From: Globomyces pollinis-pini
Lineage: Eukaryota; Chytridiomycota; Chytridiomycetes; Rhizophydiales; Globomycetaceae
DNA: 11,845 bases
Reading direction: 5' to 3'
NCBI GenBank assembly: GCA_025399215.1
Contig: MU621529.1
Location: 1 to 11,845 of the forward strand
The notes beneath the pieces are model-generated. The model saw only the letters and a program-made list of their open reading frames with translations, ran no database searches and was not told the origin of the DNA. The position numbers and the translations under genes are program-made. Position 1 is the first letter of the stretch, and every line of letters begins with the position of its first letter. Positions 3,445-11,845 of the stretch are shown here, piece after piece.

Positions 3445-4843
3445 ATGTCATTGAAATCACTGTTGATATTGGGAATTGGATTACGAATATCACTATTACT
3501 GTATGGGTATATCCAAGATATGCATCCAGTATTGAAATATACCGATATAGACTATGAAGTGTTCACAGATGGGGCAAGATTCATTGCTTTGGGACAGAGT
3601 CCTTACTATCGATCCACATATCGATATTCTCCTGTATTAGCTTGGCTACTAGTACCAAACTTGACTTGGAAACTATTTGGAAAGATTTTATTTGCAACTT
3701 CAGATATTGTGGTTGGATGTCTGCTATATTGGATATTGGAAATGAAAGGAATGACAACTAATAGGAGGTTTGGTTAATTTGTATTGATGTTAGGTACTGA
3801 TGAGTTGAATTAATAGTAGATGGAATTTCACGGCCCTTTGGATGTTAAACCCATTCGTTGCAGTATGCAATCAAAAAATTTATTTATAATAGGGAATATC
3901 AACGAGAGGAAACGCAGAATCTCTTGTATCATTATTGGTGATCTCATCGCTCTATTTGATGATGAAGAATCAATTAATTCTCAGTGCAGTTATTTATGGA
4001 GTATCTGTACATTTTAAAATCTATCCGATTATTTATTGCGTACCTATTTGGTTTGGAATTGATCACTTGATGGATTTCCCAAATTCAACAACATCTACTA
4101 GGTTCAAATTTGCTTTATTTTCCAAGCGACGAATAGTTTTCGGAATCATATCTGCTAGCGTCTTTATGGGGTTAAACTATCTCATGTATATAAAGTATAC
4201 AATTATTATGGATTGATTGTACTAGTTATGGAGATGAATTCTTGAATGAAACGTTTTTCTATCATATTACAAGAAAAGATGTATTGGAGATTTGGATACT
4301 CATTCTTTTAGCATCGACACAATTTTTCTCTATACTTTTATCATATGTATTTATCGACTGACACTTCAACAATTGGATCTTTATTGTCATTTGCACCACA
4401 ATTAACGTTGACTGTATTTTTAGGCGCTTTATTTAGTCATGACTTGCCATTTGCTTGGTTTCTACAAACGTTTGCGTTTGTGGCATTGAATAAAGTGTGT
4501 ACATCTCAGGTAACTCCGTTTTCTTTTATGATATTTTAGTATTTTATGGTTTAGAGATTATTCTTAACTTCTAGTGGTATTTGAATTTCTTGCCTTTAGT
4601 TTTACCTCAAACCACTTTGACGTCCAAATCATATAAATTGGGTATCATTCTCCTCATCTGCTGGATAGCGGGCCAAGTAAAGCAGTTTTATGTTAAAGTT
4701 AGGGATTATGGTTATATAATGCATTCCAGTTGGAGCATATGGGTCAGAATACATTCTTTAATCTATGGGTTGCAGGAATTGTTTTCTTTTTCAGTCAAAT
4801 TGCCATTATCTGTGGGTTTATACAAACGTATGTGAATGTCTAA
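3445..4843 (+). CDS. GPI14: GPI mannosyltransferase I catalytic subunit (PIG-M/Gpi14), 8 exons
   Basis: This is the ER multi-span enzyme that adds the first alpha-1,4-mannose from dolichol-phosphate-mannose to the GPI precursor. Exons by frame and motif: 3445-3767, 3820-3862, 3893-4194, 4226-4280, 4312-4509, 4540-4548, 4575-4676, 4703-4843; total 390 aa, against about 400-425 in the family. Diagnostic motifs in order: luminal DxD-type TDIDYEVFTDGARF (Asp34, Asp36), SPYYRSTYRYSPVLAWLL, WMLNPFV joined across an intron to ISTRGNAES, YGDEFLNETFFYHITRKD joined to HRHNFSLYFYHMYL, NKVCTSQ-YFM-WYL rebuilt across two introns, and GLWLYNAF...NTFFNLWVAG near the C-terminus. Introns are 52, 30, 31, 31, 30, 26 and 26 nt, all GT...TAG. 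Intron 3 could start at 4186 (40 nt) instead of 4195, and intron 2 at 3857 (36 nt). The preceding in-frame TTG at 3442 is not the start. The rest rests on strong family conservation. Confidence 0.93.
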
Positions 4844-5111
4844 AGTATCAAATAATATATTAATGATTGGATATCCTAACTGGTTTGAATCAACAGGTTG
4901 TTGTATGCTGTCTATATTTTTGTTGACTAAGAGGAGATCTAAATATGAACGCCATTTATTGAATGGGATGTCCAAGAACTTCAGAATTAATGATCCGCCA
5001 ACATAAAATCTAATTATACTGTTATTTTATTGAAACATATCAAATATTAAACCTTAAGAATCTTTCTGGAAAAGAAACTCACTCTAGACGGTTATGGCAT
5101 TATTTACCAAA

Positions 5112-5652
5112 TCTTCCTGATTCATTTTAAGAATTATCCAACAGGAATTCGGTTCATTTAATGGCTATTGTTTGTCCTGCTGTAAATCATCCAACATGTA
5201 CAGTATATGCCTTGCGAACAACATCTGGATGATCCAAGTTTTGCTTTGATCTACCAAAGAAAAGTGCATCGATTTTACAAAAAACGGGATTATTGCAGCA
5301 TCTTAAAATGATTCGAGTGGCTACTGTATATGTCGTACCTGCATCAATGGTTTTCGATGCTTTGGTAGCGTCACGTTTGAAAGCCAAAAATACCTGAAAC
5401 AGGTAACGATAGCTGTGTACCTCTCTGTTCAAGAGAACTATGTCTGCTCGGCCTGTAATGCACTTTGGAAGAATTTGATAAAATTCAAGTATCATTGTAA
5501 CTTGGCTACACTTTTCTTTTGTAGCAAAACTGGTATCGTGCATCAAGTTGTTGTTTGCAAGGACATACATTGTAAATGTTCGATGGTTTACAACAGGGCC
5601 ATTAAATGAACCCGATTCCTGCTGGATAATTCTTCAAATGGATCAGGAAGAG
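5112..5652. repeat. Long, decayed inverted repeat (about 540 bp end to end)
   Basis: The outer 55 bp of the two arms (about 5111-5165 and 5598-5652, the latter inverted) agree at about 49 of 55 positions by eye, including AAGAATTATCCA, CAGGAAT and GGTTCATTTAATGGC. Similarity continues inwards at a lower level (CTGCTGTAAATCATCC against CTGTTGTAAACCATCG; CCTTGCGAACAACA against CCTTGCAAACAACA; AGTTTTGCT; AAAGAAAAGTG) to roughly 5320 and 5440. The central 100 bp are not clearly related, and near the centre is the small hairpin ACCTGAAACAGGT (5392-5404). It could be two copies of a dispersed repeat in head-to-head insertion, or a non-autonomous DNA element with long terminal inverted repeats. I could not find a clear target-site duplication. 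Confidence 0.72.
5207..5320 (+). pseudogene. Relic of a C2H2-like zinc-finger coding segment (left arm)
   Basis: Read from 5207, the arm gives EQHLDDPSF, then YQRKVHRFYKKRDYCS, and after a one-base slip near 5297 HLKMIRV. The spacing resembles the D-P-x-F-x-C-x-x-C-x(n)-K-x-x-Y-x-x-H-L-x-x-x-H pattern of fungal C2H2 fingers, but the first cysteine pair and the final histidine are missing and the frame is broken. The inverted right arm (about 5450-5570, minus strand) has the matching stretch EFYQILPKC in place of DYCSHLKMI, with its own frame break. The zinc-finger origin is an inference from pattern only. Confidence 0.35.
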
Positions 5653-5820
5653 GTTGAGGTAAAAAATTGTCAGATGTAAATAATTAAACTACATACAAAA
5701 CCTTAAAAGTTAGGGGCTTGGTTTTATATTCAGGTGTCAAGTATCAAACGTCAGTCAAATAGTCCTTGAATGTACAGACTGTCCAAGAAACAATGTAACT
5801 AGCAAACTCTATGGATTGGT

Positions 5821-5838
5821 CAATTACAGATGTAATTG
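5821..5838. repeat. 18-bp palindrome CAATTACA-GA-TGTAATTG
   Basis: Two perfect 8-bp inverted halves are separated by 2 bp. This could be a binding site for a dimeric factor or a small cruciform. It does not sit clearly at the promoter of any secure gene. Confidence 0.6.
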
Positions 5839-6191
5839 CACCTTCGATAGTCTGTCTTGAGGAATCAAAATCATGTCACAAAGCCCAAATCTGGTTAAAA
5901 TAGGTGCTTAAAATTAAATGCATTAGTTAATAGTAATATCATCTAGGGTAAAAAGAAAACTCAATGGTTTGTTAGTGAAGTGGTTGTTATCACGGCAGAC
6001 AGTCTCGAATACGAATCTTGGATATACCATTTGTTATCATCTGTTTTGTTGGCCCTAATCTCCATATTTCTTTGGACAGACCGTTGGTCTCTGTGACAAA
6101 GGCTAAAGGAAGTAGCAAGGAATTGAAACTTTTGGTAACCAGCAACAATTTATATTTGTTTTGAATATCATATCAGACGTGTTCTAAAATG

Positions 6192-6222
6192 CATTGTCTT
6201 TTGGTCTTGTGTGAAGACAATG
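6192..6222. repeat. Perfect 9-bp inverted repeat upstream of the 7TM gene
   Basis: CATTGTCTT (6192-6200) and AAGACAATG (6214-6222) pair perfectly with a 13-nt spacer. It lies 55-85 bp upstream of the chosen 7TM start, in the probable promoter or 5' UTR. The right half contains the alternative in-frame ATG at 6220, which a hairpin in the mRNA would bury. Confidence 0.55.
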
Positions 6223-6276
6223 TTCATTATTGACAAACGTGATTCAATACAGTGTTTTCTTTATATTTTTATAAAC

Positions 6277-7215
6277 ATGCTACAAATAGCTACACCAAAA
6301 TACAAAGATCCACTTGATTATTTTGCAATTGTATGCGCTGGTATCAATTTTGCTATCAGTCTGACAAGCTTTTTGATGGTAATCACCAATTACATCAAGA
6401 TTACACAAACTCACACCAGAAAATTCATGATAATATTAACAATTGTGTATTTGATCTGGCAAATTGTGGCATTCCCCAGCTATTTCTTTGGTGGGACATT
6501 GTACATGACTGCAACTTCTGCAACAATTGGATTGGTTGTAACTTTATTAACAGTCTTGGGACAAATGGAAATCTTCAAGGCAGTTTGTTTTATTCATAAA
6601 ACTAAAAAGAGAATGATATATTTACAATATTGTGTCATCGGATTGTTTGGAATAGCTCTAATTGGACAAATTATTCAGTTCTTTTATATAGCAGATGGAA
6701 TTCCACAATGGGCAACTACAGTAAGAATTAATATTTATTGACACTTTACCAGTTGCAAGCATTTACTTACATAGGGTTTATGATCCCAAATGTGATTTAT
6801 GAAAACATTCATTGTGTGTTTGTAACTTATCGATTATACACGATTGCAAAATCTTACTTTGCAGTATCAGATTTGAATCCCGAAGTATGGAAGTCACAAT
6901 ATCAAGCCTATAAGAAGCTTTTTATATTAGTTGGAGCTACATTATTGTTTACTTGGATAGGATTAACATTATGGTTAAGTTCTTATTATCAAGAACAATA
7001 TTTAACATTTCCTAATTTATATGTTAGTAGTTTACATGTAGGATTATTTCATGTTAACTTTGGTAAAATTAATTATTTAATTAATTATTATAATAGTTGT
7101 ATTAATATTTGGACAAATGACTAAAGTACCATTAGAACGACACATTAACAAAGTGAATAAGAGTGGTAATACTCAAGATGGTGAACAAAAGACAAATCAT
7201 AAATCTATTGAATAA
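6277..7215 (+). CDS. Seven-transmembrane protein, possible GPCR-like receptor, 3 exons
   Basis: Exons 6277-6720, 6753-7062 and 7097-7215 give 290 aa. The introns are 32 nt (GTAAGA...CCAG, phase 0) and 34 nt (GTAAAA...ATAG, phase 1). The second intron restores an uninterrupted last helix, NFVVLIFGQM, where the unspliced frame would run into a run of Asn, Ile and Tyr. Hydrophobic segments lie at about 15-40, 49-71, 78-106, 116-138, 150-178, 203-224 and 237-258, with a short N-terminus and a polar, Lys/Asn-rich tail of about 32 residues. Basic residues in loops after TM1, TM3 and TM5 fit an N-out, C-in topology. The helix count suggests a receptor, but no DRY, NPxxY or other class motif is clear, so the family is unassigned. 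The start is chosen just before TM1 (A at -3); ATG 6220 is in frame and would add 19 residues. Confidence 0.75.
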
Positions 7216-7240
7216 AAACTTCAAATCTATTAAATAAAAA
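7201..7240 (+). repeat. 22-bp-period direct duplication at the 7TM stop codon
   Basis: AAATCTATTGAATAAAAA (7201-7218) and AAATCTATTAAATAAAAA (7223-7240) differ at one base. The first copy contains the stop codon TAA (7213-7215) inside an AATAAA. The second supplies another AATAAA at 7233-7238, a likely polyadenylation signal for the 7TM gene. Confidence 0.7.
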
Positions 7241-7311
7241 GTTAAAGAAATCATGAATTAATTAAAAGTGTTTGTTAGGGTTACTTTGGGTTTTCTGACT
7301 ATTTTTTCTAC

Positions 7312-9395
7312 ATGTCAAACAACCAAAATCCAAATCCTGATTATGCTTTGGATAATCAACTTCATGCCGTTATCCTAAATTCTATAATCAGGAACGATCA
7401 AAATATTAATCAAAATAATATACCCAGAAAATCAAACAAATCTATTGCCGCTTTCATAAACAAATTATACAAGTATTCTGAAATTTATCTCATTATAGTA
7501 TGGTTAGTGATCAACAATCAGATCAATTCATTCGTTGGGCTGATAATGGAAAGTCTTTTGTTGTCCCAAATCATGCGGAATTCTCAAAAGTCGTCTTACC
7601 AAAATTCTTTAAACATAATAACTTTAATTCCTTCATAAGGCAATTAAATATTTATGGTTTTCATAAAGTTCCAAATATTCAAAATGGTAAGTCGCTTGCA
7701 GATCTGTATTTCATTGAAAATTATCACAACAAAAACTTTTATTCATTTGTGTTAACATCAAATAGGATTGTTGTCTTGTAATGAACCGGAAATGATGGAA
7801 TTCATGCATCCAAATTTTATGAAAGATGCTCCCCATTTACTAATATCGGTAACAAGAAAAGTGAAAGATGAAACGCCTGTAAAGAGAGAAACTCAAGTTG
7901 ACTTATCAAATGTTTTGTTAGAATTGACTCAAATTAAAAAACATCAAGCGGAATTGACTTCTGAAATTTCAAAGATCCAAAAAGATAATCAATCAATGTG
8001 GTCACAATCGTTGCAGCTACAGGATCAATTTACTAGACAAAAGGATACCATTGATAAAATTTTATCTTTCTTGGCTTCTGTATTTTCCAAAAAGAAGAAT
8101 TTAGCAGAGGCTTCAAAGCGAAAACGTTTCTTTCTTGAAGAAACTTCTGATCCAGAAACTGAAGATGAAGATCGAAATGGTAAGTCTGCCTGTAACTGCA
8201 TATATTTTCTATTGATCAAAGATCAGTTTACACACTTAATTTCAAAAGCTGTTTGAACTATAGTTGAAACTCATGTTTTTCCTCCAATCAATGTTAACTC
8301 TAAATTTTTGCATAAATTTGGTTGCATTAACCTTTTTCAATCGAAATATTAATATTTATAGATCTATTTGAAGAACTGAACTCGCAGAACAATTTTCTTT
8401 CGCAATTGAATAGTGGTAACAACATTCAACCACAGCAATTAGCATCCATTCTACCAAATATGCAAGGCTCTAATCCACTATTGACTGAATCCTCAGCGTC
8501 GAATTTAAAAATCCCACAAGCAAGATTGACACAAATGAACCCGACATCTCAAACAACTTCGCAAGCTATACTTACACAGATGAATAATAACCCACAAGTT
8601 GCTCAAGCAATTGTTGCAGCATTAAACTCTCAAAACAATCAGAATATTACATCTCAGACCCAAAATCTTTTATCGCAAATGAACGCAAACCCACAAGTAG
8701 CACAGTCGCTCCTTGCAGCGTTAAACGCCAATTCCAATAATGTAAATTCAAACAATGCCCAAGCCCAAGCATTTTTAGCGCAATTAATGAATTCTTCATT
8801 TAACAATAATACTCAACCCAATCAAGACTTCTTATCATTTCCAAATACCTTTCCTACCAATTCCAGTTCTCAATTAAATGTTTTATCAGATACCAATTCT
8901 CCAATTAAGAACAATAATGATTGGAAAATCAACATGGAACCTGCTCCAACACATCCTGTAGAGCCTACTCTAGCAGCATTGTTTTCTGATGCACCTGAAC
9001 CGATCAATCCACTGGAAGTATCGAATGCAAATGAGAAGGTTAATGATGTTGCAGATCAGATAGATATGTTGGAAGATCGAATTTATGACTTAGGAGATGA
9101 TATCTCTACTTGGGGTATGTCTCAATTAAACAAGGATAATATCCAAAGTACCGATAAAGACCATGATGCACTATTGGCTCTCATAGAAACAAACAATAGC
9201 AACAATGAATTAGATTCTCAATCAATTGAAAGTACACCTCAAACACAATCACATAAAAGAAAAAAGAGTCGACTTAGCAATGTGTCCAATGATTCCTATT
9301 CACACCAATCTGATCGAATTCCATCACCGAAACCGGATTTGTTTTTGGCAGAGAATAATACAGAATTGGATTTTGATGAATTTTTCAATAGTTGA
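7312..9395 (+). CDS. HSF1: Heat shock transcription factor (HSF family), 4 exons
   Basis: Exons 7312-7472, 7499-7686, 7766-8179 and 8362-9395 give 598 aa; the introns are 26, 79 and 182 nt. Residues about 45-149 form the winged-helix DNA-binding domain: AAFINKLYNMVSD joined across the 26-nt intron, IRWADNGKSFVVPN, recognition helix FKHNNFNSFIRQLNIYGFHK, then EFMHPNFMKDAPHLL and TRK. Residues 163-223 are a heptad coiled coil (HR-A/B trimerisation) ending IDKILSFLASVF, followed by basic patches KKK and KRKR likely to be nuclear localisation signals. The C-terminal half is Asn/Gln-rich with two near-identical units (QMNNNPQVAQ and QMNANPQVAQ) and acidic/aromatic patches, the last being LDFDEFFNS, typical of activation domains. 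It should activate chaperone genes from nTTCnnGAAn elements. It could be the sole HSF1 or a paralogue; Skn7 is excluded by the absence of a receiver domain. Whether the 182-nt intron hides a small exon is untested. Confidence 0.93.
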
Positions 9396-9428
9396 GTTGA
9401 TAGCATTACATTATTATTTTTTGCCTGC

Positions 9429-9434
9429 AATAAA
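9429..9434 (+). promoter_or_regulatory. Candidate polyadenylation signal AATAAA of the HSF gene
   Basis: A perfect AATAAA lies 34 nt after the HSF stop, in the 98-bp gap to the convergent protease gene. Position and perfect match support it; the 3' UTRs of the two genes may overlap. Confidence 0.5.
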
Positions 9435-9493
9435 TTATACGTTTTTTCACATTATATCACTTGCTTATAAAATGAATTATAGTATCCAATATA

Positions 9494-10811
9494 TTACAAG
9501 TTAAAGGCAAAAATTAACCCCCAAGCTAGCGAAGAATAGAAATACGGCATCGTTAACGCATTATTTTCATTCCCATCGGTCCAATCCAATAATACTGAAT
9601 CATTCACAACAGATTTTCCAGCATGTATAGCTCTAGCAAATCCAACGCGACGATTGAATTTATCATAAATAGTATAAAATTGACGATGAAAAACCATTCC
9701 AAAAATCATATAATCACCACCACCACCATGAAATCTTGAAGTACATACCAAAGATTTATTATCCAATGACATCTTTTGTATATATATTCTAGAATCAAAT
9801 TGAATTTGAATCCCATTAATTAAAAAACTAATAATGGGTAATGAATTTAATTTAGAACAATCAATTTGATAAATAGTGGAATGATTTTGTAATAAAATAG
9901 CACCCAACTTTTCATTAATAGATTTTGCCATTATATCATTCAAAATAATGTTTGTAGTACCTGAATCTAATACAATAGTAGTAGTATTGAAATTAAATTT
10001 CATTGATTGAATCATCATTTTAAATTGATTGATTTTGAATTGCCAATGTGTAGCATTCTGGATTGGGAAATAAGTGATAGGGCCAATAAATTTAGATGGT
10101 TCAATACCACCTAGTGTTATACATCCACAAATATTGTCTTCTTCTTGACTAAAGTAGATTCCAAAGATGTTTTCATATGTTGTGAAATTAAATGAATCAA
10201 ATACGTTGGATGATATTCCACTTTGTTTGGTTATTATAGATTGATTGTCTAATCCTAAACCTAATATCCCATCTCCGATAGGAAATCCAACTTGCTCGGT
10301 ACTAACTCCAATGGGTATAACTGATTTTGAAGTTCCGATTGCAATTGGTACTTTGTATATATCCAGTTTGGTTGTGGATTCATCCAAATACTTTATCACC
10401 ACTTGCTTACCCAAATCTTTTACACTTGAATCAGATGTATTTAATTTGGCACCTTCACATGAATTATCAAATCTCTGGTTATTCGATCCACTATTTTCTA
10501 ATTCATGTGGTTTACATTTCGGACCACGAACCCAGGTATCTGATGAACCTGTATCCAACACTAAACTGAATTTTTGTTGTTGTCCCTACAAAGTTAACTT
10601 TCAATTGTTTAATTACAATCCAAGCATCTATTAAATATATATTGTTTCGATAATTAATCAAATCCAATGAATTTGTCATTCCAATCTTATTCATTCGTAA
10701 TTCTTTTTTTGGTTGTATAACGTTTTTTCCAGTAAATGAGATAGTAATTGATTTAGAATAAATTAAATTGAATAAGAATAGGATTCGTACATACATCCCA
10801 TACCATTTCAT
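9494..10811 (-). CDS. Pepsin-type aspartyl protease, secreted and probably GPI-anchored, 2 exons
   Basis: Exon 1 is 10811-10617 and exon 2 is 10585-9494 (minus strand), joined over a 31-nt intron (GTAATT...TTGTAG, with TTAAC as likely branch site); the product is 428 aa. The start at 10811 gives a signal peptide (MKWYGMYVRILFLFNLIYS). A short pro-region follows, and the junction yields AWIGQQQKFSLVLDTGSSDTWV, split here as AWIG / QQQKFSLV / LDTGSSDTW. Catalytic residues are Asp76 in DTGSS and Asp272 in VLDSGTT. Other A1-family landmarks are DGILGLG, a flap-region Tyr131 in IKYLDES, a cysteine pair C308/C346, and IYDKFNRRVGFARA near the end. The flap lacks the usual Gly after Tyr. The C-terminus has a polar stretch (GNENNA) followed by a hydrophobic tail ending WGLIFAFNL, as in GPI-anchored yapsins, so it probably works at the cell surface. 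The in-frame extension upstream to 10910 is thought to be untranslated. Confidence 0.92.
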
Positions 10812-10884: not shown

Positions 10885-11043
10885 ATTATTCTATTGATGA
10901 TGAATAACAATCATTCTCATTGCTTTCACTCGGTTCTTTGTTTTTAATAAGCTTTTTTTCGTGTTTCTAAAGCTTCGACAATTTTAAGTCATTTCACAGT
11001 CTATTGATAGAAGTTCAAAATAATTGATCGTGATACAGCAGTT

Positions 11044-11845
11044 ATGAAAGATGCGATAAAATCATTTTACGTAGCTGGAATAGTTATAGCAACTTTAGTA
11101 ATCTCAATCACGTATATCTTCATTCCACTACGAACAACTGCCACTTATTACAACCATTTTGTTGGATTCAGCACCAATGCATCTCCATTATATATTGGTA
11201 AATTCATTTCATACATCAACACAGTCCAAGGATTACTGTTAACTGCAACGGTACCTACTGTACTTGGAAACTACGCCTAGATTCAATTACGGGCTGGTAA
11301 AGGATAAGTGGGCATACTGGATACATCACAAGGCAAATTGATACAAGCCTTAAAAAGTTTACCCTCCTCTATTGGAAACAATCTGTTATTCTCTTTCAAT
11401 ATTTTGATACTTGTGCTCTTTGGTGGATTAAAAGCTTCAGAAATCGGCATGCACCAACAATGGTTGATCCTGTGGTACTGTTGGATCATTTTAGTACCAG
11501 TGACAGTGTGTTACTCTATGATACTCGACGATTACGATCAGAAGATATTAAAGGATTTTTTCTACATGCCCATAATGATCAAGAACCAGAATATTTCGTA
11601 AGAAAGTCTTATAAAGAAGTCCGATCTGCGTATTTTGATGTGATTGGATCAGTATCAAATACCACTGGATTGCCAATAAACAAAGAAGATGAACCAGCTC
11701 CATTAGTGAAATGTTTGCCAAAACCTGGAGTAGTTCGCTGCTCATATACAGTTCCAATGAAGTTTGCTTACGAAGCAACTTGTGAAAAGAACCCATATCG
11801 AGACAAGAAGATTGGAACTTCAGATGAATTGAAGGTAGATACCGA
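11044..11845 (+). CDS. Membrane protein of unknown family, spliced, cut by the window edge
   Basis: The gene starts at ATG 11044 and runs past the right edge. Exon 1 (at least to 11237) has an N-terminal membrane helix (SFYVAGIVIATLVISITYIFI) followed by PLRTTATYYNHFVGF and GFSTNASPLYIGKF. Its frame stops at 11278, so an intron must begin before that. The downstream frame, open from 11301 to 11845, is hydrophilic with A/T-rich third positions: LYWKQSVILFQYFDTCALWW, SFRNRHAPTMVDP, SEDIKGFFLHAHNDQEP, then a segment with Cys spacing KCLPKPGVVRCSY. The junction is unresolved. One option is an intron 11238-11280, a short exon reading FNYGLVKDK, and a second intron from 11308 to 11332 or 11347; a 30-nt GTACCT...CCTAG (11251-11280) is another donor-acceptor pair. 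I do not recognise the family. It is divergent from the protease gene with a 232-bp shared promoter region. Confidence 0.6.

Follow-up and report, generated by a model that had tools for sequence, protein, structure and literature searches.

Tiny spliceosomal introns, some apparently joined head to tail, dominate among introns sampled from the genome of the chytrid Globomyces pollinis-pini

Genes and introns at the locus

The DNA considered here, below called the window, is a stretch of 11,845 nucleotides (nt) from contig MU621529.1 of the chytrid Globomyces pollinis-pini (Rhizophydiales, Globomycetaceae; assembly GCA_025399215.1), and our subject is a class of spliceosomal introns, 26–34 nt long, which a sequence-only reading had proposed for several of its genes. 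Ten such introns had been placed in the genes for PIG-M (GPI mannosyltransferase I), a predicted multi-pass membrane protein (7TM), a heat shock factor (HSF) and an A1 aspartic protease, and their coordinates, lengths and GT...AG ends were all borne out. We report here the existence, lengths, motifs and conserved positions of these and many similar introns, several genes for splicing factors, and trains in which tiny introns abut.

The PIG-M gene (3445..4843, + strand, C-terminal end approximate) carries seven introns, and its spliced product matches the Pfam family PF05007 with an E-value of 5.6e-80. We scored each nearby GT..AG pair, with the other introns fixed, against a profile made from 70 of the 120 homologues listed. 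The claimed junction ranks first for all seven introns (six tiny ones and one of 52 nt) among 4–37 alternatives each, and keeping any single intron unspliced lowers the profile score, in line with the proposal that these introns restore the frame and the conserved motifs. The tiny ones occupy 3863..3892 (30 nt, best of 13 alternatives), 4195..4225 (31 nt, best of 22), 4281..4311 (31 nt, best of 5), 4510..4539 (30 nt, best of 18), 4549..4574 (26 nt, best of 4) and 4677..4702 (26 nt, best of 37) on the + strand; a branch scan places putative branch sites TTGAT, CTCAT and TTAAC in the second, third and fifth of these, and alignments with metagenomic relatives support the fourth (P0015) and the sixth (P0007 and P0105). 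The 52-nt intron (3768..3819, +, best of 35) reads as two abutting 26-nt units, 3768–3793 and 3794–3819; when ranked against known tiny introns, their scores fall at percentiles 27 and 18. Among the homologues listed, the protein is closest to those of chytrids; a one-gene tree with 40 selected from the 120 places it together with Gorgonomyces and uncultured relatives (98/89), next to a Batrachochytrium/Polyrhizophydium group.

The other three genes were called by an ab initio gene finder, which was run with and without a prior on intron length. In the HSF gene (7312..9395, +) it placed introns of 26, 79 and 182 nt in both runs. As had been proposed, removal of the 26-nt intron (7473..7498, +), which lies within the DNA-binding domain, yields a complete domain (PF00447, profile positions 1–100 of 100, E 5.5e-34). 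The protease gene (9494..10796, − strand; PF00026, E 1.3e-47 on the long exon) contains a 31-nt phase-0 intron at 10586..10616 (−) with a putative branch site TTAAC, again called in both runs; a phase-0 tiny intron of 27–31 nt stands 9–10 residues before the catalytic DTG motif in five of ten protease models, namely that of the window and four paralogues (L004, L005, L006 and L008). The A1 aspartic protease family is large in this organism, with 35 PF00026 matches (G000). For the 7TM gene (6277..7215, +, called with the prior) the 32-nt intron at 6721..6752 (+, putative branch site TTGAC) was called with and without the prior, and the 34-nt intron at 7063..7096 (+, TTAAT) with the prior only, the finder otherwise fusing this gene to the HSF gene through another intron. 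As the 7TM protein matches no Pfam family, the evidence for its two introns consists of these gene-finder calls.

A narrow class of tiny introns across the sample

Our sample comprised 20 stretches of 10 kb from the 20 longest contigs together with the window, 211,845 bases in total, on which we trained a small coding/intron model that permits introns of 15–300 nt and treats all lengths as equally likely. Run in this manner, the finder called 261 GT-AG introns across 85 genes, of which 174 are at most 40 nt long, 17 are 41–80 nt and 70 exceed 80 nt; the lengths peak at 25–34 nt with a mode of 28 nt, so that the proposed class extends well beyond the window. Under a matched protocol, in which the coding model was kept as trained, with no retraining, GT-AG gave 109 introns of 25–34 nt versus 3–14 for each of eight pairs of decoy dinucleotides. 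In the stage that preceded the splice-site matrices the corresponding counts were 58 versus 5–16, and in the bins above 44 nt GT-AG introns were fewer than those of every decoy pair. With the length prior, the finder called 344 introns in 93 genes, 73 of which have at least one, or 2.73 introns per kb of coding sequence, a count that leans on the prior. The 165 introns of 24–36 nt have a median length of 29 nt and a 5–95% range of 25–34 nt. The main intron class is thus a narrow distribution below ~35 nt, as in the ultrashort-intron genomes of the ciliate type, and tiny spliceosomal introns dominate among the introns sampled from this genome.

In Paramecium, introns whose length is a multiple of three (3n) and which lack a stop codon are selected against. 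We considered such selection here and set it aside: 35 of the 38 detected 3n introns have an in-frame stop, which is no evidence for it, the finder being blind to stop-less 3n introns.

Protein homology provides a further line of evidence. We estimated gaps between neighbouring exon-by-exon family matches of kinases, aspartic proteases, U2AF, SF1 and Saf4/Yju2, using those contigs for which a single table held two or more matches; the C22 and C59 entries were omitted from the U2AF table (opposite strands, and a gap above the 400-nt limit), at a loss of 0 pairs. The frame changes in 32 of 49 neighbouring pairs; for these the gap estimates have a median of 28 nt, and 24 of the 32 lie at 22–34 nt. 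SMU1, spliced at ten predicted units of 25–33 nt (two of them abutting), aligns with residues 1–371 of human SMU1 with one two-residue gap, and the proteasome subunit alpha-3 (PSMA3), with six introns of 29–30 nt, can be aligned along 249 residues with a gap of a single residue. All ten spliced models that we chose match Pfam families, including SF1, U2AF65, phosphoglucose isomerase (PGI), a DHX29-like helicase and pyruvate dehydrogenase beta, and the NCBIfam cut-offs are passed by U2AF65 (TIGR01642) and a tRNA methylthiotransferase. Across 97% of its length the PGI model (contig C14) is 100% identical to its public counterpart from Globomyces pollinis-pini, which agrees with it at seven of eight modelled introns, all tiny; the eighth, of 20 nt at the C-terminus, is a model error. 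Likewise, the CSTF64 model (contig C45) is contained exactly within a public protein of this species. Together, the decoy dinucleotide pairs and the homology exclude chance as the source of the tiny introns.

Intron anatomy and splicing factors

The sequence-only reading had noted YTNAY-like branch sites close to the acceptor, and a position-free motif search over the 165 introns of 24–36 nt recovered them as WYTNAY (T 0.93, branch A 0.96). The likelihood gain of this motif is 76.7; 20 shuffles, run with fewer starts and iterations than the real search, averaged 15.1 and reached at most 27.0. In the 162 confident cases, the branch A lies 6–10 nt from the intron end in 116 and 16–23 nt from the donor in 127. 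In the trained matrices the donor is GTA (+3 A 0.88) with weak positions +4 to +6, and the acceptor is mostly TAG (−3 T/C 0.89). With their GT-AG ends, constrained donor, YAG acceptor and a branch site complementary to U2, the introns look U2-type.

The inspection of U2, SF1 and U2AF suggested earlier found U2, SF1 and the U2AF65 subunit. There is one U2 small nuclear RNA (snRNA) gene (135.4 bits) with a normal GTAGTA, and SF1 and U2AF65 are present, both encoded by genes that carry tiny introns themselves. We accordingly reject the idea that losing U2AF65 or SF1 was what made such introns possible. SMU1 is likewise present, and of two Saf4/Yju2-family proteins the copy on contig C109 matches the family profile from position 1, its N-terminus MSERKVLNKYF being kept. 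Two family searches for RED were without a match, as they also were in every control genome. From this set of factors and the form of the introns, conventional machinery may be sufficient at 24–34 nt. The U2AF65 gene has one simple intron of 126 nt (L030 1378–1503) beside five tiny ones, and regulation could act at this intron.

Head-to-tail trains of tiny introns

We also uncovered seven trains of abutting tiny introns, in which complete introns appear to meet at an AG|GT joint with a zero-length exon between them. In addition to the 26+26 nt train of PIG-M, they are those of SMU1 (25+29 nt; L044 2306–2359), Exo70 (28+27 nt; L024 5844–5898) and CSTF64 (40+29+29+35 = 133 nt; L032 1683–1815, − strand), and those designated L001 (31+31 nt), L025 (37+31 nt) and L023 (29+29+28 nt). 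The four in named genes are anchored by homology on both sides; of two Exo70 alignments, one shows a gap of two residues at the junction, and the entire 133-nt train is missing from the public CSTF64 protein. Hence, the claim that longer introns coexist with the tiny ones needs to be divided: the HSF introns of 79 nt (7687..7765, +) and 182 nt (8180..8361, +) are simple and do not split, as is the U2AF65 intron of 126 nt, whereas the 52-nt PIG-M intron, and with it part of the longer introns, appears to be concatenated.

The model used for testing such splits, with units of 22–40 nt, forbids zero-length exons and hence cannot favour them. By this test, 5 of 29 introns of 44–140 nt split fully into units versus means of 0.36 and 0.47 for two kinds of shuffle (maximum 3 in 300), or 4 of 28 when the doubtful L004, whose ABC transporter model looks wrong, is omitted, the shuffle means referring to the full set. 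The 29 exclude the trains of PIG-M, SMU1 and L023, which that model did not call. Without the length prior, 4 of 21 introns of 44–76 nt split versus a shuffle mean of 0.44 (maximum 3 in 200); L007 and L009, both ambiguous models, account for two of these, and 2 of 19 remain on their omission, with the mean of 0.44 again that of the full set. The trains of L004, L007 and L009 were dropped from the final list as resting on wrong-looking or ambiguous models. Independently of gene models, high-scoring units in 278 kb lie at gap 0 in 9 instances versus a mean of 1.8 and a maximum of 6 for gaps of 1–40; at two stricter thresholds the counts are 4 versus 0.5 (maximum 3) and 3 versus 0.1 (maximum 1), and these stem from the L023 and L032 trains alone. 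Based on these excesses and the homology anchors, some of the longer introns are best read as trains of tiny introns without an intervening exon.

Weighing the explanations

We are confident that the bulk of these observations reflects ordinary U2-type GT-AG introns compressed to a minimum of ~24–34 nt in most sampled genes of a chytrid that stays intron-rich. The major spliceosome would recognise each intron as one unit (intron definition), with U1 and U6 binding a GTAWKT-like donor, and SF1, then U2, the YTNAY branch site. That site would mostly lie ~16–23 nt from the donor and 6–10 nt from the YAG acceptor, so near the latter that there would be hardly any room for a separate polypyrimidine tract. 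As the cause of shrinkage we propose a deletion bias that, working against a floor imposed by splicing, would hold the lengths in a tight band. Several points weigh against this account. Calls above 80 nt without the length prior are probably for the most part false joins or noise, because under the matched protocol the decoys yield more of them (76–106) than GT-AG does (61), and the initial donor and acceptor matrices were seeded, for the decoys as for GT-AG, with introns no longer than 60 nt. The gene finder erred in other respects: it missed PIG-M with and without the prior, mis-called the C-terminus of PGI (the 20-nt intron), ended the SMU1 model short of the end of the human protein and produced the wrong-looking L004 transporter. 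Eight of the 32 frame-changing gaps fall outside 22–34 nt (−13, 13, 41, 43, 44, 46, 68 and 392). Searches for U1, U6 and U12 snRNAs had no match, which is no proof of absence; in the U12 search the control too matched nowhere. Splicing in vivo at these junctions is something we infer from homology, from the reading frames and from gene models in the public record. A reader might ask if the apparent breaks of 26–34 nt are instead produced by sequencing errors, pseudogenes or ribosomal frameshifts. A draft assembly always runs this general risk, and nothing else speaks for it here; the fixed donor, branch and acceptor motifs, the GT-AG specificity, the spread of introns over most predicted genes, their presence in housekeeping genes and the nearly gap-free alignments of the spliced products make it exceedingly improbable.

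The origin of the compressed introns and the nature of the trains invite two further alternatives. The tiny introns might be mobile copies, akin to introner-like elements, that were inserted recently, and not old introns that have shrunk. Head-to-tail trains are to be expected if a new copy lands next to an intron already in place, and neighbouring units are unusually alike in L023, where fractions of only 0.001 and 0.016 of random pairs are as alike, and in L001 (0.016). These make up 3 of 15 within-train unit pairs at or below 0.016; in the other 12, in a comparison that covered similarity within trains only, the units resemble one another no more than tiny introns drawn at random do. Moreover, two PIG-M positions are common to relatives 50–61% identical: the reading frame of the uncultured relative P0015 runs into an apparent intron exactly at 4510–4539, and that of P0007 exactly at 4677–4702, with P0105 diverging at or next to the same position. 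Since the protease position is also shared by diverged paralogues, these introns would be older than the present sequence, and their age favours shrinkage over recent insertion, which we regard as unlikely.

The other alternative, to which we give a nearly even prospect of being right, is that the trains are single longer introns with a chance AG|GT, of which only the first donor and the last acceptor are used. The units of Exo70, L001 and L025 indeed score low (1st–13th percentile of known tiny introns), the public CSTF64 protein demonstrates removal of the whole train only, 24 of the 29 longer introns and the 182-nt HSF intron do not split, and the gap-0 excess at the stricter thresholds comes from just two trains. 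Of the trains themselves, those of CSTF64, L001 and L025 were called as single introns without the length prior, and those of Exo70 and SMU1 were not called as one intron. Against a chance origin stand the excess of splits over both kinds of shuffle, which persists without L004, the excess of abutment over gaps of 1–40 at three thresholds, and the normal-range scores of the four CSTF64 units (44th–100th percentile) and the three L023 units (38th–99th). If the trains are composite, head-to-tail joining, by duplication of a unit or insertion beside an existing intron, would make some of the longer introns, and any donor-acceptor choice within a train would leave a valid shorter train. Stepwise removal, which we propose, is plausible, because a train removable in any order would yield the right mRNA. 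More tentatively, it is possible that splicing in this fungus works in ~28-nt units, with part of the longer introns being trains of two to four units that are excised singly via zero-length exons, and with introns gained when a unit is duplicated beside one already there, such that intron length would be partly quantised.

Other features of the window

A gene model without introns encodes a Sel1-repeat protein at 1596–2423 (−), and PF08238 occurs in five stretches. At 11011–11845 (+) lies an open region with frame changes near 11280–11310 and 11550–11600, which, on reading, no clean tiny intron explains; either a pseudogene or a gene with other introns may lie there. An Rfam scan of the window had no match.

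Comparison with known systems

Ultrashort introns are described from Paramecium and Nyctotherus (~25 nt), Stentor (15–16 nt), chlorarachniophyte nucleomorphs (18–21 nt) and mikrocytids (16–17 nt) (PMC10245619, PMC9505925, PMC5014332). The likeness to ciliates and nucleomorphs that had been drawn for the window holds against these accounts (PMC10245619, PMC9505925): as in these systems and in mikrocytids, the lengths form a narrow band near the splicing minimum, and the introns of Stentor are likewise AT-rich, with GTA..AG ends and a branch A near the acceptor (PMC9505925). Unlike all of them, Globomyces belongs to the true fungi; its genome measures 18.5 Mb, the YTNAY is recognisable, and longer and tandem introns coexist with the tiny ones. 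For Stentor, the parts of the branching factors that lie at the active site are reported not to be conserved (PMC9505925), whereas the Globomyces Yju2-family protein, one of three branching factors (the others being Cwc25 and Isy1/Ntc30), keeps its N-terminus.

Among fungi, a survey of 644 genomes gives a mean intron length of 63 bp for Cryptococcus and above 400 bp for two other fungi (PMC8476143), and a 2025 study names C. neoformans as the most short-intron-rich of the fungi compared, with an average of 56 nt and a small population below 40 nt (PMC11913375). Globomyces resembles Cryptococcus neoformans as an intron-rich fungus with many short introns and the major spliceosome; unlike in the latter, 24–34 nt is its main class. 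Human spliceosomes are said to need ~50 nt from donor to branch, with Smu1 and RED easing short distances (PMC6692369). A short donor-to-branch distance would be a physical problem in both organisms and SMU1 is present in Globomyces, whose distances, unlike the human ones, are mostly ~16–23 nt and whose RED was undetected in family searches without a matching control.

The trains recall recursive splicing via zero-length exons, best known from very long animal introns (PMC5126111, PMC2773006), in that the AG|GT abutment of the seven Globomyces trains would permit stepwise removal. They also recall stwintrons, composite U2 introns of fungi in which one intron lies nested in another and interrupts one of the latter's splice signals (PMC8469720); unlike stwintrons, the Globomyces trains read as units placed end to end, and the GGT start which the [D1,2] form, the only type compared, requires is seen on reading the sequences in 0 of 7 trains.

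Implications for annotation and splicing

Among the open-licence papers listed, with subscription papers and genome-portal statistics beyond reach, we found no report of tiny or tandem introns in chytrids. Public gene models already hold such introns; the data are not hidden, and as far as we have seen they are apparently undiscussed. For Globomyces sp. JEL0801 (public proteins P0123 and P0242), the PGI model is without residues 323–352, which make up precisely the exon flanked by two tiny introns, and without 226–235, around a third, and the CSTF64 model is without 26 residues starting exactly at a tiny intron. The PGI of Terramyces sp. JEL0728 (P0182) is without 211–226, some eight residues before a tiny-intron position. 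These missing conserved segments in the JEL0801 and Terramyces proteins are probably annotation artefacts. The losses at tiny introns in the JEL0801 models, together with the finding that no Globomyces PIG-M is among the 120 best PIG-M matches listed, suggest that the proteomes of such fungi suffer damage when gene-calling pipelines impose a minimum intron length.

Beyond annotation, Globomyces would offer a fungal model for how a megadalton machine works on a short substrate, with only ~16–23 nt from donor to branch, a question now pursued mostly in ciliates and on human short introns. The trains, in turn, would allow stepwise splicing and the birth of introns by duplication to be tested in a natural setting.

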